Source: a virus
DNA length: 64,000 nucleotides
IMG/VR virus record: IMGVR_UViG_3300050138_000176
Span: 22,505 to 86,504 of that record
Direction: 5' to 3' (one strand)
The position numbers and the translations under genes are program-made. Position 1 is the stretch's first letter, and each line of letters opens with the position of its first letter. Positions 4,053 to 61,066 of the stretch are shown here, piece after piece. Below the pieces are notes generated by a model, which was given only the letters and a program-made list of their open reading frames with translations, was not told the origin of the DNA and searched no databases.

Positions 4053-6173
4053 ATGCCCACCATCGGCACAAACCTCTGGACGCTGACCTACGACCCGACC
4101 GGCGCCAACGTGGAGCAGGCGCTGGCCGACTGGGGCATAACCGGCATGCGGATCGAGTACGTGTCGCAGGCGATGGACACCGTGGCGTTCCGGCTCGCCG
4201 GCTCCAATGTGGACGACCCTCTGGTGTTCGCGTTCCTGAAGGAGTGTGTCATCAAGAGCGGCCGCACCAGCACCGACGGCGTGGTGTTCAGCGGCGGCAG
4301 GTCCCGGTTCCGCGGCCTGGTGCTTGAGCCGAAGCGGGCAGCTCAGGGAGGCGACGAGTCCATGACCTACAAGCTCGGCGGCCCGTGGTGGTACTTCGAG
4401 AATCTGACCGCCGAGGTGGATTTCAAGATCATCACCGCCATCGCTCCAGGCGGCGCCATCACCTACGCGACCTTCCGCAGCACCCATTTCCTGCTGAATT
4501 GGAATGCGCAGAACCTGCGGCAGACCACCGGACAAATAATTGAGGAGATGGTGAAACTCAGCATCACCACCGGCGCGCCGATGCAGATTCTGCCGGACGA
4601 GACCCGCACTGTGATCAACCTGCCAGGAGAGAACGATGGAACGGCGCTGTGCAGCGCAGGGATACGAAGCGACCTCTACGTGCCGCTGGATGAGGTGAAC
4701 ACAATCTCGGTCGCGGAATGTATCCGTAAAATGTTCCGCTGGACTCCGGACTTGGTTTCATGGTTCGACTACACGACCGACCCATACCCGACGTTCCGCT
4801 GCTGCCGCCACACGGACATGGCGCAGGTTAACATCGACCTATTGGATGGTGGTGACGTGGCCGGAGTGTCCATCACCAGCGCCACGCTGACGCCGCGCTA
4901 CGACCTCCAGCGGCCGTTCGTGAAATTCATCTTCGAGACCACCAACGAGCTGAACGGTCAGAGCACATTCCTGCTCAGTTACCAGACCTACCCGCCCAGC
5001 CCGGACACCACCGGCATCGGCGCGTTCCGTGGCCTGGAGATGACGGTGGCGTTGCAGGGCGCCAACGTGCATACCACCGATGCCACATTGACAAGCCAGG
5101 TGCTGCCGGTTTTCGGTGTAAGTTCATCCGCCGACCTGGCCTACATCAAAGGCAAGTGCAACTGGTTTGCGGATAAGACTGTCGCAGCGCTCACCGTGAA
5201 CAGCGTCTCGTTCCAGCAGGCCGACCCGAACGCGGCTCCAGTGGCGTTCTCTCCCACTTACAATTACGAGATCGTGCAGGGCGGCATCACGCCGTGGATG
5301 AGCCAGGGCGGCGTCCCGGCCCTGTGGGATTCGCAGATAGCGATATTCAACGTGGACTACACGCTGTCGAACGGCGAGTTCACGAAGGGCCACAGCATCC
5401 AGGTGGAGATACGGACGACCAACCTGAACACGAACGGCATCCGCAAGAAGTTCACCGAGGTCAGCGGCACGCCGTTCTCCGAGGCCGTTCCTTCCAACCT
5501 GGCGCAGGAGTTCTACAACGCGGTCAACGTGCTCCAATGGGACGGCGAGCTGAAGTGCAAGCAGGACGAGGCGGACTGGCTCGACCTGGACGGCGCACCG
5601 GTCGGCATCGGGTGCGCGCTCAACATCGACGACAGCGCGCAGTTTGCCGGCATGGCCGCCACGATCCAGCAGGTGCGCGTGGATGTGGACACCGGCAAGA
5701 CTACGGTGAAGATCGGCCCGAACCGGATGCTGACGGTGAACGACATTGTGGACTTGATGCGGGTCGTGCGGCGGCGGCTGGTGCTGCTGCCTCTGTCCAC
5801 GATGACCGGCGGCACGCTCGGCGGCGGCACGTCGCTGGCCCTGGCGGACGCCTACCCGGCCGGCAAGGGGGCGGCGGGCGCCGGCTACAAGCCGGTGGCC
5901 GTGGCCTCGGACAACGGCGGCGCAACGAACAACTACGTGGCGATGAACACGAACCCGCTGGCGTCCGGTCCGGGAGCCGGGTCATGGGGTCTGCTAGTGC
6001 AGCAGGCTGGTGACAATCTTATCAATGTGAGTTACCCGGACGCCATCATAAACGGCGTCAAGCGGCCGGTTGCGCTGCGGCTCTACGACGTATGCACCTA
6101 CGACCCGGCCACTGGAGCGCCGACCGTGCAGCAATGCGTGCTGCTCGGCTCTGTGCCGTTCCCAAAGACGTGA
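4053..6173 (+). CDS. Tail / baseplate hub-like structural protein
   Basis: 706 aa, soluble, beta-rich (many Thr, Val and Gly residues), directly after the tape measure where distal-tail or hub proteins are normally encoded. Several internal stretches (for example NVDYTLSNGEF and VDTGKTTVKIGPNRML) look like a beta-sandwich followed by a hub-type domain, with a Gly/Ala-rich linker near residues 585-625. No enzymatic motif is seen. The function is assigned from gene order and composition, not from a recognised family. Confidence 0.65.
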   Translation: MPTIGTNLWTLTYDPTGANVEQALADWGITGMRIEYVSQAMDTVAFRLAGSNVDDPLVFAFLKECVIKSGRTSTDGVVFSGGRSRFRGLVLEPKRAAQGGDESMTYKLGGPWWYFENLTAEVDFKIITAIAPGGAITYATFRSTHFLLNWNAQNLRQTTGQIIEEMVKLSITTGAPMQILPDETRTVINLPGENDGTALCSAGIRSDLYVPLDEVNTISVAECIRKMFRWTPDLVSWFDYTTDPYPTFRCCRHTDMAQVNIDLLDGGDVAGVSITSATLTPRYDLQRPFVKFIFETTNELNGQSTFLLSYQTYPPSPDTTGIGAFRGLEMTVALQGANVHTTDATLTSQVLPVFGVSSSADLAYIKGKCNWFADKTVAALTVNSVSFQQADPNAAPVAFSPTYNYEIVQGGITPWMSQGGVPALWDSQIAIFNVDYTLSNGEFTKGHSIQVEIRTTNLNTNGIRKKFTEVSGTPFSEAVPSNLAQEFYNAVNVLQWDGELKCKQDEADWLDLDGAPVGIGCALNIDDSAQFAGMAATIQQVRVDVDTGKTTVKIGPNRMLTVNDIVDLMRVVRRRLVLLPLSTMTGGTLGGGTSLALADAYPAGKGAAGAGYKPVAVASDNGGATNNYVAMNTNPLASGPGAGSWGLLVQQAGDNLINVSYPDAIINGVKRPVALRLYDVCTYDPATGAPTVQQCVLLGSVPFPKT

Positions 6174-6427
6174 ACACCATAGCCAAACTCGTTATTCTGT
6201 TCTGCTGCTTTGCCGGACTGGTTCTGGTTGAGAAGTGGCGCGGCGACCGATTGCAGACAGACTGGGACTACAACCGACGCTCTTTGTGGTTCGAGTTCCA
6301 TCATGGCGGCGGGGAAACTATAATTGGCGCTGGTTGGGAAAAGCATTACCCAGTCAACGGTGGATATGATGACGGGTTTTGGAAGCCTTTCTACCTATGC
6401 GAATCTTGGCATACATCGTCGTATTGA
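6170..6427 (+). CDS. Small anchored protein
   Basis: 85 aa from the GTG at 6170, which overlaps the previous stop (GTGA). A single N-terminal hydrophobic segment (AKLVILFCCFAGLVLVE) could be a membrane anchor or an uncleaved signal; the rest is aromatic-rich and soluble. The longer ATG start at 6092 would overlap the upstream gene by 80 bases and is less likely. It overlaps the start of the next lipoprotein gene. Function is unknown; the envelope location is inferred. Confidence 0.55.
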   Translation: MNTIAKLVILFCCFAGLVLVEKWRGDRLQTDWDYNRRSLWFEFHHGGGETIIGAGWEKHYPVNGGYDDGFWKPFYLCESWHTSSY

Positions 6428-41142: not shown

Positions 41143-42321
41143 ATGTTACGCGCATATAAATATCGCCTATATCCAAATGTTGAACAAAAGGTGTTATTAT
41201 CTAAACACTTTGGCTGCGTGCGATGGGTTTGGAATTGGGCACTGGCGGAGCGCACAAAGGTTTATGAGGCAACCAAGAAAATGGTATCCAAATACGAGCT
41301 ATGCAAGCGGTTGCCGGTAATGAAGAAGCAGGAGGCGACTGAGTGGCTTGGTGAAGTAAACGCGCAAAGTTTGCAGGGGGCGCTTCATAATCTGGACGAG
41401 GCTTACACCAAATTCTTCAGGGAAAAGAAAGGATTTCCAAAATTCAAATCCAAGCATAACTACCAGAGTTTCCAATGCCCGCAAGGAAGCGATGTAGATT
41501 TCAAGGCTGGTAGCATAAGCATTGTAAAATTACCAAGCATCAGGGCCAAGACCAGCCGTGAATTCAAAGGAAAAATAAAAACAGTCAGCATCAGCATGAC
41601 GCCAACCGGGAAGTATTTTGCCAGCGTATTGGTGGACGATGGCAAGCCGGAGCCGGAGCAAAAGAAACGGATCAATTCATCTAAGACTGTTGGTGTGGAT
41701 GTTGGAATCACCCACTTTGCCACACTGTCAACCGGGGAGAAAGTGGAGAACCCGAAGTACCTGACAAGGGCGTTGCGGAAGCTCCGCCGTGCGCAACGCA
41801 GGCAGGCTCGACGGGTTAAGGGTAGCAAGAATCGGCAGAAGGCACGGCATCAAGTCGCTCTAATCCATGAGCGTGTAACCAACCGTCGCAATGATTTTCA
41901 GCACAAGTTATCAACACGTCTTATCCGCGAGAACCAAGCGGTCTGTTTAGAGACGTTGAACATTGCTGGAATGCAGAAGAATACACGACGGGCACGGGCC
42001 ATAAGCGATGCGGCATGGGGTCAGTTCGTGACCATGCTCGAGTACAAGGCCCGGTGGCAAGGAAAGACCGTGCTGCGGATCGGGCAATTTGAGCCGTCCA
42101 GCAAGTTGTGTTCATGCGGTGTTATCAATCAGGAACTAAAGTTGTCCGACCGCACTTGGAAGTGCGGCAGTTGTGGGATAAAACACGACCGCGACATCCT
42201 TGCCGCGAACAACATCAAGCGGATGGCCTTGCATCCGGGGAACTTTTTAGCGCAGGGTATGCGCGAATTTACGCCTGTGGAGACTGGCAGTAGCCGGTCG
42301 TTGAAGCAGGAATTGGCATGA
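41143..42321 (+). CDS. tnpB: IS200/IS605-family OrfB (TnpB) RNA-guided nuclease
   Basis: 392 aa, full length for TnpB. N-terminus MLRAYKYRLYPNVEQKVLLSKHFGCVRWVWNWAL is typical. RuvC residues are intact: D in VGVDVGITHFAT (about 186), E in VCLETLNIAG (about 270) and D in HDRDILAANNI (about 350), with a zinc ribbon CSCG...CGSCG between. TnpB enzymes cut DNA guided by an RNA made from the 3' end of the gene and the flank. No TnpA lies beside it, so movement would need a partner in trans. Confidence 0.93.
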   Translation: MLRAYKYRLYPNVEQKVLLSKHFGCVRWVWNWALAERTKVYEATKKMVSKYELCKRLPVMKKQEATEWLGEVNAQSLQGALHNLDEAYTKFFREKKGFPKFKSKHNYQSFQCPQGSDVDFKAGSISIVKLPSIRAKTSREFKGKIKTVSISMTPTGKYFASVLVDDGKPEPEQKKRINSSKTVGVDVGITHFATLSTGEKVENPKYLTRALRKLRRAQRRQARRVKGSKNRQKARHQVALIHERVTNRRNDFQHKLSTRLIRENQAVCLETLNIAGMQKNTRRARAISDAAWGQFVTMLEYKARWQGKTVLRIGQFEPSSKLCSCGVINQELKLSDRTWKCGSCGIKHDRDILAANNIKRMALHPGNFLAQGMREFTPVETGSSRSLKQELA

Positions 42322-48173: not shown

Positions 48174-48484
48174 ACGGGCAGCAAGATGGCATGGCGTTCG
48201 CGGAGCCGAAGGTGCCGAGCCTGACCAATCCGCAGTCCGCCGGCAACGAACTGTGGCGCAAGAAGCCAGAGAAGGAAGTTCCGCACGGACTGCCGCCGGA
48301 TCAGGCCGCGTGGCTGCCGGTGGCCCGCAAGGTAAACACGGTAGGCTACAAGGACATGGAAGACTGCCTGCGCCAGAGTCTGATAATCGGCCTCCGTAGC
48401 ATCGATCACCACGAGTGTCGCCGGGCTGTGGCGCGGCTGACACCGGCGCCGAAGAAGGTAAAGAAGGAGGAGGAATCAGAATGA
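48170..48484 (+). CDS. Hypothetical protein
   Basis: 104 aa from the GTG at 48170 (or the ATG at 48191). Contains GLPPDQAAWLPVARKVNTVGYKDMEDCLRQSLIIGLRSIDHHECRRA (given in part), a helical domain. It ends in a KKVKKEEE tail. No family is recognised. Confidence 0.55.
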   Translation: MNGQQDGMAFAEPKVPSLTNPQSAGNELWRKKPEKEVPHGLPPDQAAWLPVARKVNTVGYKDMEDCLRQSLIIGLRSIDHHECRRAVARLTPAPKKVKKEEESE

Positions 48485-50846: not shown

Positions 50847-50888
50847 CTCAGGCTACTGTACAGGTTGATTAGTAAAATTAGCAAAGGA

Positions 50889-51365
50889 ATGGCCATCTAC
50901 AAAACAACCGGCACCGGAAAGCGCAACTGGAAGGCTGTCGCACTCGCCTCCCTGGCGCGGATACCGAACGTGTCCGAAGCCTGCCGCCGGGCCAAGGTGG
51001 TTCGCCAGACCTACGAGAATCACTACGCCAAGGACGCCGAGTTCCGCGACAAATGCGAGACCGCGATACAGGCAGGAATCGAGAAGCTGGAAAAGAGCGC
51101 TTTCAAGCGGGCCAACGAAGGCACCAAGTACGGCGTCTGGAAGACCGACAAGGACGGCAACCCGATCAAGGTGGAGACGCGGCGCGAGTTTTCGGACGGC
51201 CTCGCGATGTTCTTCCTGAAGGCGTACAAGCCAGGGCGGTTCAAGGACACCGTGGAGCACACCGGCCCGGACGGCGGCCCGATGTCGCTGTTGATCGTGC
51301 AGTCACCAATCGACCCGGCGTCCGTGACCGGGCCGCCGCCAAAGAAGAAAGAGGAAGGAAAGTGA
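50889..51365 (+). CDS. terS: Small terminase-like HTH protein
   Basis: 158 aa from the ATG at 50889 (a TTG at 50865 is possible). An N-terminal helix-turn-helix (ALASLARIPNVSEACRRAKVVRQTYENH), a helical middle (FRDKCETAIQAGIEKLEKSAFKRA) and FFLKAYKPGRFKD match small terminase subunits that recognise the packaging site. A basic C-terminal tail follows. The large subunit lies 2.9 kb downstream, so assignment is supported by neighbourhood, not adjacency. Confidence 0.65.
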   Translation: MAIYKTTGTGKRNWKAVALASLARIPNVSEACRRAKVVRQTYENHYAKDAEFRDKCETAIQAGIEKLEKSAFKRANEGTKYGVWKTDKDGNPIKVETRREFSDGLAMFFLKAYKPGRFKDTVEHTGPDGGPMSLLIVQSPIDPASVTGPPPKKKEEGK

Positions 51366-51366
51366 T

Positions 51367-51600
51367 ATGCATCCGTGCAACACAGTAACGACTGATGAGA
51401 TGACCAAGGCTCTAAAGAAGGCCGGGTGGAAGCGTAGCCACGGAAACATATTCACAGCACCGACCGGACTCTGTTACCGTGGCCCGGCACTTGCCTACTC
51501 AGTATTCAAAGGTGCTACATGGCCGCCTCCGAGGATATGCCGGGCCTGTGAATGTGAAGTAAAAAACAACGGATGTGGATGCAATCCTCCAGACGCATAA
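51367..51600 (+). CDS. Hypothetical Cys-rich phage protein
   Basis: 77 aa. FTAPTGLCYRGPALAYSVFKG is recurrent in small phage proteins; a C-terminal CRACECEV...CGCNPP may bind metal. The TTGACA of the next promoter starts seven bases after the stop. Confidence 0.65.
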   Translation: MHPCNTVTTDEMTKALKKAGWKRSHGNIFTAPTGLCYRGPALAYSVFKGATWPPPRICRACECEVKNNGCGCNPPDA

Positions 51601-51606
51601 TTCAGT

Positions 51607-51635
51607 TTGACACCCGCGCCGGTTCGCGCCATATT
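51607..51635 (+). promoter_or_regulatory. Promoter of the pseudoknot leader
   Basis: TTGACA (51607-51612), GC-rich block, GGTTCG, three bases, CATATT (51630-51635). The expected start (about 51642) coincides with the first base of stem A of the leader RNA. Confidence 0.65.
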
Positions 51636-51641
51636 GACGGC

Positions 51642-51748
51642 GTGAATCAGTGCAGAAATCTTAAACCAACCGAGCGGCTTGCAGGTCTTACCACTTGCGC
51701 TGATTCACACCAGGGCTGCTCGGTTGCTTTGAGGCTTCAAAGGATAAT
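51642..51748 (+). ncRNA. Structured leader: interleaved 12-bp stems plus SD hairpin
   Basis: Stem A pairs 51642-51653 with 51697-51708; stem B pairs 51667-51678 with 51715-51726; each is 12 bp with one G-U. The order A5'-B5'-A3'-B3' makes a pseudoknot or two mutually exclusive hairpins. Directly after stem B, CTTTGA/TCAAAG (51727-51742) overlaps the AAAGGA ribosome-binding site (51739-51744) of the gene at 51749. This is a strong candidate translational control RNA of unknown class. Confidence 0.75.
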
Positions 51749-52546
51749 ATGATTAGTGAACACGCAGCGATAGAAAAGTTAAACGGAGATGAGTCGGCGG
51801 AATTGCTTAAGTGCAAGAAAACGGTGTCATCTGGCTTGCAGGTGTTTTACAAAGTCGGTGATGCTTTAATGTCTATCCTGAACAGTAGGCTCTACCGAGA
51901 AACGCATACATCATTCATTGAATTTTGCAAAGATGAATGGGGCATGTCCGGCAGCCGGGCGCGGCAGCTTTGTGACGCGGCAAAAGTGGTTAAAAATATT
52001 ACAGGACTTGATGTACAAACACTTAACGTGTCAACAACTGTTGACACTCCAAGTTCTGAGGCAGTCACAAGGCCACTAACATCACTGACTGAAGAACAGC
52101 AAAAAAAGGCGTGGAACGAGGCGAAGAAAGCTGCCGCAAAAGAGGGTCGTAAAGCTAACAGCAAGGACACAAAAAAGGCTGCTGATACCTTGGTGCCACC
52201 AAAGCCCAAGCCTCAGCCGCCGCAAAATAAACAACGCGCCCGCGGCGGTCTTGCATCAAACGCAATGAATTCCGAGGCCACCGCCGCGCCGACCGCGTCA
52301 TACGATGCCTACACTTCCTCGCTAACGAAGCCGTCACCGCAACCCGCGCCCGTAACCGCGCCGCTGCCGAACCCGGTGCTGACGCCGGAAACCGCGCCTG
52401 TGGAAACGGGACCGCGCAAACCTGCTGACATCGTGCGGGCCTGCTACGCCCGGCACAAGGCGGCATGGAACCAGGTTCCGCCGCCAGCGCCTTCCGTTAT
52501 CATTGAAACCATAATCAAGGAACTGGAGGCATCGAGTGGCCTTTGA
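51749..52546 (+). CDS. DUF3102-like DNA-binding protein
   Basis: 265 aa. Residues 1-95 contain a helical DNA-binding domain with LYRETHTSFIEFCKDEWGMSGSRARQLCDAAKV, seen in phage and plasmid proteins of the DUF3102 kind. The C-terminal two thirds are a Lys/Ala then Pro-rich low-complexity linker and a short helical end (ADIVRACYARHKAAWNQV). It is controlled by the structured leader, so autoregulation is possible. Confidence 0.65.
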   Translation: MISEHAAIEKLNGDESAELLKCKKTVSSGLQVFYKVGDALMSILNSRLYRETHTSFIEFCKDEWGMSGSRARQLCDAAKVVKNITGLDVQTLNVSTTVDTPSSEAVTRPLTSLTEEQQKKAWNEAKKAAAKEGRKANSKDTKKAADTLVPPKPKPQPPQNKQRARGGLASNAMNSEATAAPTASYDAYTSSLTKPSPQPAPVTAPLPNPVLTPETAPVETGPRKPADIVRACYARHKAAWNQVPPPAPSVIIETIIKELEASSGL

Positions 52547-53748: not shown

Positions 53749-54260
53749 CCGACATCCAACCAATCCCATTCGAGCAATTCTACCCAACAAGCCACGCGGT
53801 GCGCGACCGCGGTCGGGAGCTGCCGGAGCCGTTCGACACCAGGACAGTGATGCAGGTGTTTGGCGGAATTGAAAAGATGGACGCGACCAACATGCTGAGT
53901 TCCTGGCTGCGGATGGAATGGGCGGTGCGCACGAGCCGTGGCTGGTACCGGCGCGGCCCGCGCTACGGCGCCAGCGCCAGAACCTACTCCTGCCGGCCAT
54001 CATCATCGGCCAAGTTCGTGAATGACCCGGCGAACCAGCCGAAGGTTGATTTCCAGAACAACGAAGCCACGCTGCCGGACTCCCTGGCCGGCATCGCGCT
54101 GCTCACATCGCTCATTGAACCATTCACCAGGCTGGATGTCGCTGCGCGACTGGACGGCGACCGCAACCAGCGCGCCGAACAGTGGTTGGCGGCATGGCAC
54201 CGGCATGGATGGATTGAACGTGCCGGGTTCGGCAGCTACCGGAGAAAGGTAGGAATTTAA
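53745..54260 (+). CDS. Double winged-helix-like protein upstream of TerL
   Basis: 171 aa with two similar modules: PFDTRTVMQVFGG...NMLSSWLRMEWAVRTSRGWYRRG (about 27-70) and PFTRLDVAARLDGDRNQRAEQWLAAWHRHGWIERAGFGSYRRK (part shown; about 123-169). Each looks like a winged helix ending in a G-Y-R-R wing. The same module occurs twice more in the gene at 56025. It abuts terL, so a packaging-site role is possible. Confidence 0.6.
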   Translation: MTDIQPIPFEQFYPTSHAVRDRGRELPEPFDTRTVMQVFGGIEKMDATNMLSSWLRMEWAVRTSRGWYRRGPRYGASARTYSCRPSSSAKFVNDPANQPKVDFQNNEATLPDSLAGIALLTSLIEPFTRLDVAARLDGDRNQRAEQWLAAWHRHGWIERAGFGSYRRKVGI

Positions 54261-55753
54261 TGGGCTACAAGAAAAAGCAACCAGCCGCCGCAACCCGCGT
54301 CCTGACGCTGCCCAGGTTCAGGGGTGGGCCGCTCGCTCTGCTCACCAACCATGATCACGAGGTAATTTGCAGCGGCGGCTCGGACATTGGCAAGAGCTGG
54401 GCGGTCTGCACCAAGGCGTTCATGCTCTGCAACGACCAGCACCGGCCTGGCGTCCATGGCGTGCTCGCAAGAAAATTATTCAATTCAATTCACAACAGTG
54501 GTGCCAGGACGTTCAATACGATAACTGCCGGCATGGGAATTAAACGGCTCGGCGGTGACAAGTTCACCGACAAGTGGATCTTTCCATCAGGCTCAGAATT
54601 GGTGTGCATCGGACTTGATACTCCTGAAAAACTTCTTTCGTCCGAGTGGGACTTCATCGCCGTGATCCAGTCCGAGCAGCTCACCGAGTCCGACTGGGAA
54701 CTGGCCGCCAGCCGCGTGACCGGCCGTGGCGCCGTCGTGGCCTACCCGCAGATATTCGGCGACTGCAACCCAGGCGGCAGCCGCCACTGGATCAGGGACC
54801 GGGCCAAGAAGATTGATCCCAAGACCGGCAGGCCGACGCTGACGCTGCTTCCGAGCACCCACAAGGACAACCCGGCTCTGTATGACGACGCGGGCGCGAT
54901 CACCGAGGAAGGCAAGCAGCGTATCGGCAAGCTGGAGTCCACGCTGTCCGGCGTCCGGCGGCAGCGGTTGCTTGAAGGCATCTGGGCAACGGCGGAAGGC
55001 GCGGTGTTTGACACGTTCAACGCGACCATCACCGGGCAGCCGAGCGACCACGTCCAGGCCAAGGACCCGCGACAGGTCAAGCGCTGGTTCCTGTGCCAGG
55101 ACGAAGGCTACACGAACCCGGCGGCCATCGCGCTGTGCGGAGACGACGCGGATGGCAGGCGGCATGTTTACCGGGAATGGTACGAGCGCGGCAAGATCGA
55201 GTCGGACGCCGTGGCGGTCGCCGCACTCTGGTTCAAGCGCCCGCTGCTGGCCGCCAGTGGCGCGGACGAGGCCGCGCTGAAGGCTGACATAGCGGCGGCG
55301 CATCCGGCGACCGACCAGCCGCAGAGCTGCGAACTGGACGCCGTGGACGACGCTGCCGCATCGCTTATCGCCGCGCTACGTTCGGCAGGCGTCAACGCAA
55401 AAGGCGGCAAGGGCCGCATCATGGATGGTGTTCAACTGATACGCGACCGGCTCAAGGTGCAAGGTGACGGCAGGCCGCGATTGACCATGGACCCGTCCTG
55501 CGTCAATCTCATCAACGAATTTGAATCCCACATAATGAAGCCGCAGAAAGGTGGATTGGATAAAGACGAGCCGCTGGATTGTGATAACCACGCCATCGCA
55601 GCCGCACGCTATTTAGAGGATGTGCTGGCCGTGCCCACCGGCGCGATCACCAGCGCCACGGTGTCGGGTCTGGTGACCGGGCAGCCGTCGCTGGCGGGAA
55701 CCAGCGGCGGGCCGCGTTCGTGGCCGGGAAGCAGGCCGTGGCCGGGAAGGTGA
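54260..55753 (+). CDS. terL: Terminase large subunit
   Basis: 497 aa. ATPase: Walker A CSGGSDIGKS (37-46), adenine-motif-like ARKLFNSI, FPSGSELVCIGLDTPEKLLSSEWDFIAVIQSEQ as the Walker B region (the usual acidic pair is reduced to SE). Nuclease domain: first Asp in LCQDEGYTNPAAIALC, later LDAVDDAAASL and DCDNHAIAAARY. It powers DNA packaging and cuts genome ends. The C-terminal tail is Gly/Ser/Pro/Arg-rich. Confidence 0.88.
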   Translation: MGYKKKQPAAATRVLTLPRFRGGPLALLTNHDHEVICSGGSDIGKSWAVCTKAFMLCNDQHRPGVHGVLARKLFNSIHNSGARTFNTITAGMGIKRLGGDKFTDKWIFPSGSELVCIGLDTPEKLLSSEWDFIAVIQSEQLTESDWELAASRVTGRGAVVAYPQIFGDCNPGGSRHWIRDRAKKIDPKTGRPTLTLLPSTHKDNPALYDDAGAITEEGKQRIGKLESTLSGVRRQRLLEGIWATAEGAVFDTFNATITGQPSDHVQAKDPRQVKRWFLCQDEGYTNPAAIALCGDDADGRRHVYREWYERGKIESDAVAVAALWFKRPLLAASGADEAALKADIAAAHPATDQPQSCELDAVDDAAASLIAALRSAGVNAKGGKGRIMDGVQLIRDRLKVQGDGRPRLTMDPSCVNLINEFESHIMKPQKGGLDKDEPLDCDNHAIAAARYLEDVLAVPTGAITSATVSGLVTGQPSLAGTSGGPRSWPGSRPWPGR

Positions 55754-58747: not shown

Positions 58748-61066
58748 ATGGTGACAGCAACAGCGCCGACACGCACGACCCGCTGGGGAATCCAGCAGGC
58801 CGTCGCCGCCGCGTTCCAGCGCCCGCACTTCGGCGCCCGTGAGATAATTAAAACCACACCTTCCCGGACACTGGCGGCCGCCAAGTCCAGCAAGAACCTC
58901 ACCCAGCCCGCGCCGGACCTGCTGCCGTCGCTGGCCGGAGTTCTCCGCAAGGAAACCATCGGCAACTGGCTGATGCCGTACATGTCCTACATGACGCCGC
59001 AGTTCATCGAGACCACGATCCGCGGCGGCGTGGCCGGGAACCTGAACGCGATGTGGCAGTTGTTCGACCTGATGATTGACACGGACAGCGAGATCCAGTC
59101 CTGCATCAATGAACTGGTCGAGGGCGTGATGTGTAAGACCATGCTGGTCGAAGCGTGGCACGAGGAGGACGAGGAGGAGACGCCGAAAGCCGCCGAGAAA
59201 CGTGCGCTGGTGGTCGCCGCGATGGCCGGCATGAGGCCGGATCCGTTCAGCAACGAGAACGACTTCGCCGGCACGGTCAAGGATTTGCTGTTCGCCCGTT
59301 ACCACGGCCAGGTTGTGCTGGAAATGGACTGGTACGACACGTACGGCAGCGGCAAGCTGTGGCAGCGCGACGTGCCCGGTGTCGGCACCGCGACCCTTCC
59401 TCGCTCAACCTACTGGGTTCACCCGAACTGCTACGGCTGGACGCCAAGCGGCCGTCTCGCGCTCTACACGCCGAAAGGCGGCATGACGGCGAAGGACTTG
59501 ACCAACCTGGCGCGTAAGATGAAGGAGACCGGCCTGGGCTACGGCGCGGTCGCCACGGTGCCGGACTATACGAACCCGCCGAACGCCTTCACCGAATTTC
59601 CGCCGGACAAGTTCATCGTCGGGATTGACAAGGCCAAGACCGGGTCCGCGCTGGCCGCATCCTCGCTCCGGTGCCTGGCCTGGTGGTGGCTGGCGAAGAA
59701 CTTCTGCGGCGATTACCTGCTCAAGAACGCGGAAATGTTCGGGGTGCCGTTCCGCAAGGCGTCGTACGCGCCCGGTGTCAGCGACGCACAGAAGCGGGAG
59801 GTGGCGCAGATGCTCCAGTCGGTTGGCAGCCAGGGCTGGGCCTTGGTTCCAGAAGGCGTCCTGATGGAATTTGAGCGTGCGATGGCAACCGGCGCGCAGT
59901 CGCCGCACGCGTTCCTCTACAACCTGGCGAACTCCAACATCCGCAAGGTGATACTGGGCCAGACCATGACCGGCGGCGCGAACGATTCCATGGGCAAAGG
60001 CGGCGGCAAGGCGTTCGGCGACGTGGAACTGGAGAAGACCACGGACCGGATCACTGCTGCCACTCATTACATTGAGGCCGTGTTTAACAGCCAGGTGATA
60101 CCGGCGATCCTGCGGCAGAATTACAATGAGGATTCCGAATGTCCCAAGTTGCATCTGGTGGACGACGAGGACGCCGGGCTGCCGGCCGCGCAGACCCTGC
60201 AAGTGCTTTCGACTTTGATGGATGTGCCGGACTCGTTCCTGCATCGCAAGTTCAAGATACCGAAAGTGCGTACCGGAGAAGGTGTTGCCGGTGTGGATTC
60301 TGGAACCCTTGGTGCTCAAGCCAAAGCGGAGCAGGCCCAACAACAGCAGGAAATGGACGCGCAACAGGAACAGGCGCAGATGATGGCCGACGCGCAGGCC
60401 CAGCAGGCACAGGACCCGCAGCAGGCACAGGCGGCGCGGAGCCGGGTGCAGGCTGAGTTCCGGGAGATCAGCGCGATCCGCGACCTGAACGAACGCGGTG
60501 TCAGGTTGAAGGCGTGGTTGCATAAAAACTCGCCACGGACACCGTTGCAGGCGGCTGGTTCCTCTGCATCCAAGTTCGGCTGCTTGATGGCGATGGTGCC
60601 AGCGGCGGACGCCGAACAGTTCGCGTCTATTGAGGCAAAGATAGAACCCGGCACACTGGCTGATGAAGGCGTAGAGGATGAAAAACACGTCACGATTTTT
60701 TACGGATTCAACCAAGACTTCGACCCGGCGCGCATGGCACCGCTGCTGTCGATGCTGGGGCCGATCAAGTTCACGCTCGGCAAGCTGACCCGGTTCGAGT
60801 GCCAGGACTACGACGTGCTGAAGTTCGATGTGGAGTCGCCGCAACTGGAAAAGCTGAATGCCGCGCTCGGAGCAGCCTTCGCGCCAGACGTGACGCCGAG
60901 TGAGCATGACTACCACCCGCATCTCACAATTTGTTATTGTAAGAAAGGCAGCAACGTCGCTGCTGACGGCTCGTCGCTGGCCGGGAAATCTTTCACCGTC
61001 AAGAGCCTGCTCTATTCGCTGCCGCAGAAGCAGGGCCGCGTAACCCTCAACCTCGTCAAGAAATGA
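58748..61066 (+). CDS. Mu gp29-like portal fused to 2H phosphoesterase domain
   Basis: 772 aa. Residues 1-520 are a DUF935-type portal (LFARYHGQVVLEMDW, CLAWWWLAKNFCGDYLLKNAEMFGVPFR, LNLANS-like YNLANSNIRKVILGQTMTGG). A Gln/Ala-rich coiled linker (about 520-580) leads to a C-terminal domain with H647-V-T-I-F-Y and H725-L-T-I-C-Y, the two HxT motifs of 2H phosphoesterases, spaced 78 residues apart. That fold cleaves 2',3'-cyclic or cyclic-oligonucleotide bonds in RNA-processing and anti-CBASS enzymes. The fusion is unusual; activity is unproven. Confidence 0.8.
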   Translation: MVTATAPTRTTRWGIQQAVAAAFQRPHFGAREIIKTTPSRTLAAAKSSKNLTQPAPDLLPSLAGVLRKETIGNWLMPYMSYMTPQFIETTIRGGVAGNLNAMWQLFDLMIDTDSEIQSCINELVEGVMCKTMLVEAWHEEDEEETPKAAEKRALVVAAMAGMRPDPFSNENDFAGTVKDLLFARYHGQVVLEMDWYDTYGSGKLWQRDVPGVGTATLPRSTYWVHPNCYGWTPSGRLALYTPKGGMTAKDLTNLARKMKETGLGYGAVATVPDYTNPPNAFTEFPPDKFIVGIDKAKTGSALAASSLRCLAWWWLAKNFCGDYLLKNAEMFGVPFRKASYAPGVSDAQKREVAQMLQSVGSQGWALVPEGVLMEFERAMATGAQSPHAFLYNLANSNIRKVILGQTMTGGANDSMGKGGGKAFGDVELEKTTDRITAATHYIEAVFNSQVIPAILRQNYNEDSECPKLHLVDDEDAGLPAAQTLQVLSTLMDVPDSFLHRKFKIPKVRTGEGVAGVDSGTLGAQAKAEQAQQQQEMDAQQEQAQMMADAQAQQAQDPQQAQAARSRVQAEFREISAIRDLNERGVRLKAWLHKNSPRTPLQAAGSSASKFGCLMAMVPAADAEQFASIEAKIEPGTLADEGVEDEKHVTIFYGFNQDFDPARMAPLLSMLGPIKFTLGKLTRFECQDYDVLKFDVESPQLEKLNAALGAAFAPDVTPSEHDYHPHLTICYCKKGSNVAADGSSLAGKSFTVKSLLYSLPQKQGRVTLNLVKK

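Follow-up and report, generated by a model that had tools for sequence, protein, structure and literature searches.

An interleaved-stem leader ahead of a phage gene as a candidate C4-like self-complementary regulatory RNA

Results

The leader locus and its gene

The window, as the whole analysed stretch of 64,000 nucleotides is called here, comprised bases 22505-86504 of an IMG/VR virus record of 86.5 kb. The leader sat in a 148-nt gap between a 77-aa ORF (51367-51600) and a 265-aa ORF, and the locus lay between the genes of the small (50865-51365) and large (54260-55753) terminase subunits (Table 1). The TTGACA and CATATT boxes that a preliminary description had placed before stem A were found at the same positions on direct reading. 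They scored 10 of 12 consensus matches, with 0.7 such sites expected by chance in the 1.8 kb scanned, and the match taken by itself pointed only weakly to a promoter. The start of TTGACA was 35 nt from the start of stem A, a distance identical to that in another viral locus described below (L005), and the 5' end of the RNA probably falls on the first base of stem A, 51642. The possibility of a coupled leader peptide, read from GTG at 51642 to a stop overlapping the gene start, was rejected, as the frame had no Shine-Dalgarno (SD) sequence and no similar peptide was found (best E 8).

The 265-aa protein had no match in Pfam or PHROG. Its first ~130 residues matched hypothetical proteins of plasmids from cyanobacteria, Streptomyces and others (best 39% identity, E 9e-18), and an alignment-based search located the same N-terminal domain, distantly related, in seven viral contigs. 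A single-sequence search found no relatives in viral_contigs or genome_contigs, and no credible relative was present in the phage records. Some of the homologues lay near partition genes, and one was inside an ORF annotated as a cytosine methyltransferase. The predicted structure was all-helical, with a mean pLDDT of 86 in the best of five models and 69-73 in the other four. Comparison with solved structures gave no significant match; the weak matches included the SopB DNA-binding domain. Given an all-helical prediction with no significant structural match, a role in DNA binding can be proposed only tentatively. The stems described below were looked for in the leaders of the protein's homologues and were absent, which indicated that the leader is not carried along with the protein family.

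Table 1. Positions of the leader features and the downstream gene in the window
Feature	Positions	Strand	Description
Putative sigma-70-like promoter	51607-51635	+	TTGACA 51607-51612, 17-nt spacer, CATATT 51630-51635; match to consensus
Stem A, 5' arm	51642-51654	+	Expected RNA 5' end; pairs with 51696-51708
B extension, 5' arm	51655-51665	+	Pairs with 51728-51738, with one mismatch and G-U pairs
Stem B, 5' arm	51667-51679	+	Antisense segment inside the A loop; P 0.0005 against shuffled loop and tail
Small hairpin UGCAGGU/ACUUGCG	51680-51699	+	Forms in the B state; 3' arm overlaps A'
Stem A, 3' arm (A')	51696-51708	+	Direct reading
Stem B, 3' arm (B')	51714-51726	+	Target segment
Hairpin C, CTTTGA-GGCT-TCAAAG	51727-51742	+	5' half (51728-51738) doubles as target of the B extension
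Shine-Dalgarno AAAGGA	51739-51744	+	Read from the sequence
265-aa ORF	51749-52546	+	N-terminal helical domain; DNA binding putative

Interleaved stems and predicted folding of the leader

The leader contained two long stems in the order A-B-A'-B', with B located within the loop of A. The core of stem A (GTGAATCAGTGC / GCGCTGATTCAC) held a single G-U pair and was extended inward by an A-U pair (51654-51696), giving 13 bp in all; a G-U pair followed (51655-51695), and the stem could also be extended outward to 51639/51711 with one mismatch. The core of stem B (CAACCGAGCGGC / GCTGCTCGGTTG), likewise with a single G-U pair, reached 13 bp with the inward pair 51679-51714 and was extended outward via GAAATCTTAAA / TTTGAGGCTTC to 51655/51738 with two mismatches. 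Hairpin C covered four of the six SD bases (51739-51742). The preliminary description had reported the two interleaved stems at 12 bp with one G-U each, and a third hairpin over most of AAAGGA; its coordinates proved exact, and both stems turned out one pair longer. Its view that two such stems would hardly arise by chance was also borne out, as an interleaved 12+12 bp pair with at most one G-U in each stem occurred once in the window and once in total in 82 dinucleotide-shuffled windows, the shuffle tests taking local composition as given.

Folding of the two strands was compared with shuffled sequences, and z was -3.3 for the + strand and -1.4 for the - strand. Only the + strand folded clearly beyond the shuffles, which assigns the structure to the sense RNA. 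The best pseudoknot-free fold consisted of the extended stem B and the small hairpin (51680-86/51693-99), with A and C missing and the SD free. When the RNA was folded at increasing length, A appeared first (complete at 51708) and B replaced it from about 51728. The energies with A or B enforced were -36.1 and -41.5 kcal/mol, respectively (131 nt), and the mean openness of the SD was 0.55 with B' free versus 0.91 with the B' region occupied. Stems A and B compete unless a pseudoknot forms, and the sequence holds either two rival states or a pseudoknot. Both of these had been offered as options in the preliminary description and each was compatible with the sequence. The minimum-energy nested structure was not A plus C but the extended B, and by the energies an open SD goes with B and not with A. 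The stem order allows an H-type pseudoknot, but the linker between A' and B' is tight (5-6 nt, and 2-3 nt in L005). A linker too tight for a comfortable full pseudoknot with stems of 11-13 bp leans, on geometric grounds, toward strand exchange or pairing in trans.

Leaders of similar geometry in viral loci

The leader sequence gave nothing beyond chance when it was compared with phages, E. coli genomes and plasmids, and a structure-like pattern of the leader found no relative in viral contigs. No relatives of the terminase small subunit were found, and no match was obtained in Rfam, the riboswitch models included. With no homologue of the window leader, there was no covariation of its own. Possible trans targets elsewhere in the same phage were limited to matches of 13-16 bp, about the chance level by an estimate made without shuffling.

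Compact interleaved stems were sought in 1.15 Mb of sequence made up of the window and viral kin gathered via terminase relatives. Interleaved pairs with a total of at least 24 bp were found 11 times, a figure that includes a few overlapping counts from one tandem repeat. The expected number was 0.48, and none of 77 shuffled sets gave more than 3. Several had the same plan, in which a promoter is followed by A at +1, the loop of A contains B, B' lies by the SD and an ORF stands 100-130 nt downstream, and the plan with both promoter and SD was seen in L005, L049, L065, L101, L010, L126 (two leaders) and L099. In L005, TTGACA started 35 nt before an A of 11 bp, B was 11-12 bp, an endonuclease VII-type gene had a possible start 108 nt from A, and a segment before the start codon was also able to pair with A'. 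In L101, TTGAC started 36 nt before A, and B complemented both B' and the SD region AAGGTAAGGAA. In L049, which came from the nearest terminase kin, the gene was of the replication-initiation type. In L065, TATAAT ended 5 nt ahead of A; L065 and L010 had the stem-A sequence TGTCTAGGG in common, with a compensatory A-U/G-C change further in. The genes behind the similar leaders were unrelated and included those of HNH, LAGLIDADG, pentapeptide-repeat and replication proteins. These cases were picked by this geometry and alone are therefore not an independent test. Matches that looked coding (e.g. L106, L107 and L118) and the tandem-repeat matches L113 and L017 were set aside.

Two loci were noted separately. 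In L099 (300-430, + strand), a further leader with interleaved stems (TGATACCAGCCAT; CACGCTTCG) preceded a 363-aa ORF that has an SD. In L017 at 6040-6205, and also in L021, a cluster of about ten repeats of the AAGTGCGTCT type in both orientations preceded an ORF and resembled a binding-site array more than a leader.

A leader subfamily retrieved by stem A alone

The pattern TGTCTAGGG-N53-83-CCCTAGACAAGAA, which covers stem A alone and is blind to B, retrieved eight stretches of viral sequence and two contigs from bacterial MAGs. The subfamily members were L010, L065, L126, L127, L128, L131, L133 and L134, of which the last six were new distinct leaders, L127 and L128 being close kin. In each new leader, A was preceded at 5-6 nt by a -10-like box (TACAAT in L126 and L128, TAAAAT in L127, TATAAT in L131 and L133, TATACT in L134). 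In each, a segment of the loop complemented the leader's own stretch beside or over the SD across 10-21 bp (each P <=0.016 against shuffled loop and tail), and the target contained the SD in L127, L128 and L134. Across 12 leaders including that of P1, six of which had been picked by geometry, the pairing of each loop with its own tail averaged 14.25 bp (10-21) versus 6.97 bp for mixed pairs, and only 4 of the 132 mixed combinations reached 10 bp. Although the sequences of B varied, their complementarity persisted; this is support for the plan as such but not for the particular letters of the window. An Rfam search with the TGTCTAGGG loci gave no family, the C4 model included.

The genes behind the TGTCTAGGG leaders were of the HNH, LAGLIDADG, endonuclease VII-like, HTH and LPD29 types. 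AAGAA after stem A was conserved in the subfamily, and in several members a further helix, E/E', was interleaved with the others as A-E-B-A'-E'-B'. The window leader resembled them in the -10 box 5-6 nt ahead of A, the antisense segment in the loop, the target beside the SD and the similar lengths; it lacked the conserved stem A with AAGAA, and no helix E/E' was seen. By the stem-A sequence (TGTCTAGGG / CCCTAGACAAGAA) it was not a member, its own stem A being GTGAATCAGTGCA with the pattern absent, but its plan agreed with theirs, a putative promoter being followed by A at +1, with B inside the A loop and B' by the SD.

On its - strand, L126 carried one interleaved-stem leader from 320 and another from 3994, each with its own stem-A sequence. 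The first preceded an endonuclease VII-like ORF, and the second, which also carried a helix E/E' (TTTGTCC/GGACAAA), preceded a 409-aa ORF that appeared by eye to be ParB-like at its start. In a Saccharibacteria MAG (L133, 3782-3905), a TGTCTAGGG leader stood before a LAGLIDADG endonuclease gene, and in a Bacillota MAG (L134, 2541-2668, - strand) another stood before an HNH endonuclease gene. The TGTCTAGGG leader, found in two bacterial phyla, may travel with homing endonucleases. No member beyond the known one was found among 380 genomes of the phylum of L133.

Comparison with C4 and other leader structures

The C4 antisense RNA is known from the immunity regions of P1/P7, related phages and prophages. 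C4 pairs near the ribosome-binding site (RBS) and thereby blocks antirepressor synthesis (PMC12197685). In P1, c4 occupied 48343-48419, with the annotated targets a2 and b2 directly downstream, ahead of icd. When it was read in the same way as the window leader, a 17-bp stem A (G-U counted) was seen at the 5' end with an A-A' span of 74 nt, and the b' segment in the loop paired over 12-14 bp with b2 over the SD. The window leader had the same layout of a 5' hairpin (67 nt, with ~77 nt in C4) with a long closing stem, an antisense segment in the loop (13-bp B/B') and a target directly downstream by the SD of the next gene, in the same A-B-A'-B' order, and its stem A began 107 nt from the start codon compared with 127 nt in P1.

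Several differences from C4 (RF01695) were also found. In P1 the promoters are located at least about 120 nt upstream, and C4 is processed out of a longer transcript; the promoter candidate of the window, in contrast, immediately precedes A. The target of P1 includes the SD, whereas that of the window (51714-51738) stops before it, and pairing of B is predicted to leave the SD open, unlike in C4, which was counted against a C4-like reading. The downstream gene is not icd/ant, and the leader does not lie in an antirepressor operon (icd/ant, KilA-N). The C4 covariance model gave no match at E up to 10 in the leader region or the whole phage record, and membership of the C4 family, which the layout had prompted, was rejected on this model. 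By analogy, the window leader would work like C4 and is not of the C4 family. The preliminary description had recognized no known class; this calls for amendment, as the order and spacing match those of the P1 C4 region, although the covariance model places the leader outside the C4 family.

RNA structure preceding phage endonuclease genes is known to limit translation (PMC2988022). The RBS-sequestering hairpins of T4-type homing endonuclease genes (I-TevI, segB and Aeh1 mobE) are similar to the window leader in being such structures before a phage gene, but they are simple and local, without interleaved long stems or a promoter at the first stem, and the window gene is not an endonuclease.

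Discussion

We consider it somewhat better than an even chance that the leader is a C4-like self-complementary regulatory RNA, in which pairing of the loop segment with its target controls ribosome access to the 265-aa gene. Transcription would begin at stem A, and the first 67 nt would fold at once into the A/A' hairpin, whose loop would display the antisense segment 51655-51679 (B and its extension). The target would be the next ~25 nt of the same mRNA, ending directly before the SD. Pairing may take place in cis, through a pseudoknot or strand exchange in a single molecule, or in trans, with the 5' hairpin RNA being released and then binding the mRNA in the manner of C4. Where the target contains the SD (L127, L128, L134 and P1), pairing should repress translation. 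In the window and most of the other leaders, 0-10 nt separate the end of the target from the SD. Pairing could there either block initiation by crowding the ribosome or help it by melting a closing hairpin; for the window, folding predicts that pairing frees the SD from hairpin C. Pairing of the loop segment with the region before the SD most likely sets the translation rate of the gene.

A purely cis two-state switch with no separate antisense RNA is the strongest rival, though considerably less probable. Early in transcription A would let C close the SD, and later B would dissolve A and C and open it, the outcome being chosen by the speed of transcription, the ribosome or a bound factor. The stepwise move from A to B, the more open SD with B' occupied and the ability of the segment before the L005 start codon to pair with A' are consistent with such a switch. 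The predicted change, however, runs downhill without a signal, and since B covers the SD in L127, L128 and L134, the sign of the effect would vary between members.

It is improbable that the stems are a DNA-level site, such as a packaging site or an operator, or a product of chance. Packaging sites can lie between the genes of the small and large terminase subunits, where the leader is located, and the leader has no homologue on which this could be tested. However, folding beyond chance was confined to the + strand, similar leaders with differing yet complementary B segments preceded many genes, and the chance rate was about 1 in 82 windows.

Autoregulation, in which the encoded protein would bind the folded leader and repress its own translation, is more improbable still. 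It has a precedent in T4 gp32, since the 5' leader of gene 32 contains a pseudoknot upstream of the RBS (PMC3014915); the window leader also lies directly ahead of its gene and may form a pseudoknot. The gp32 leader differs in being bound by the encoded single-strand DNA-binding protein. The window protein, all-helical in the model and weakly similar to the SopB DNA-binding domain, looks like a nucleic-acid-binding protein. Against this, the same plan stood before HNH, LAGLIDADG, pentapeptide-repeat and replication genes, and the protein's homologues had no such leader.

A ligand-sensing pseudoknot riboswitch is very improbable: the leader can form a pseudoknot and ends at the SD, but it had no Rfam match, the related leaders showed no visible conserved unpaired core apart from what one subfamily has in common, stem A and AAGAA, the stems, at 11-21 bp, are unusually long, and the downstream genes share no common pathway. 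Of the proposals made in the preliminary description, the structured regulatory leader was supported by the strand-specific folding and the recurrence of the plan, and the metabolite riboswitch had no support in view of the Rfam result and the varied genes.

About a dozen further loci of phages and bacteria showed the C4-like layout with unrelated sequence, and a search of open-licence papers found no description of such a leader class. We tentatively suggest, at a little less than even confidence, a widespread undescribed class of leaders of phages and mobile elements, the window leader included, in which the mRNA of each gene would begin with an antisense hairpin private to that gene. In such a class the sequence would be free and only the self-complementarity and the plan would be kept, and one phage could carry several, as with the two of L126. 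The class would control homing endonucleases, ParB-like, HTH and other proteins, and might, like C4, act to silence an incoming copy's gene. If the plan recurs in many phages, with unrelated sequence and ahead of genes for homing endonucleases and DNA-binding proteins, self-antisense leaders would be a general control device of phages, and they would bear on the mechanisms that keep mobile endonucleases quiet. Since only complementarity would be conserved, annotation based on sequence or on Rfam would miss such leaders. A simple search rule follows: a promoter, a stem at +1 and a loop complementary to the SD region.

Two other genes of the window were also noted. A stand-alone TnpB-like transposase gene (phrog_506, E 1e-127) was located at 41143-42321. 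The C-terminal part (~residues 640-738) of the portal protein (58748-61066) matched a PHROG annotated as RNA ligase; by eye, this part appeared to be a 2H-phosphoesterase-like domain, which would be an unusual fusion.
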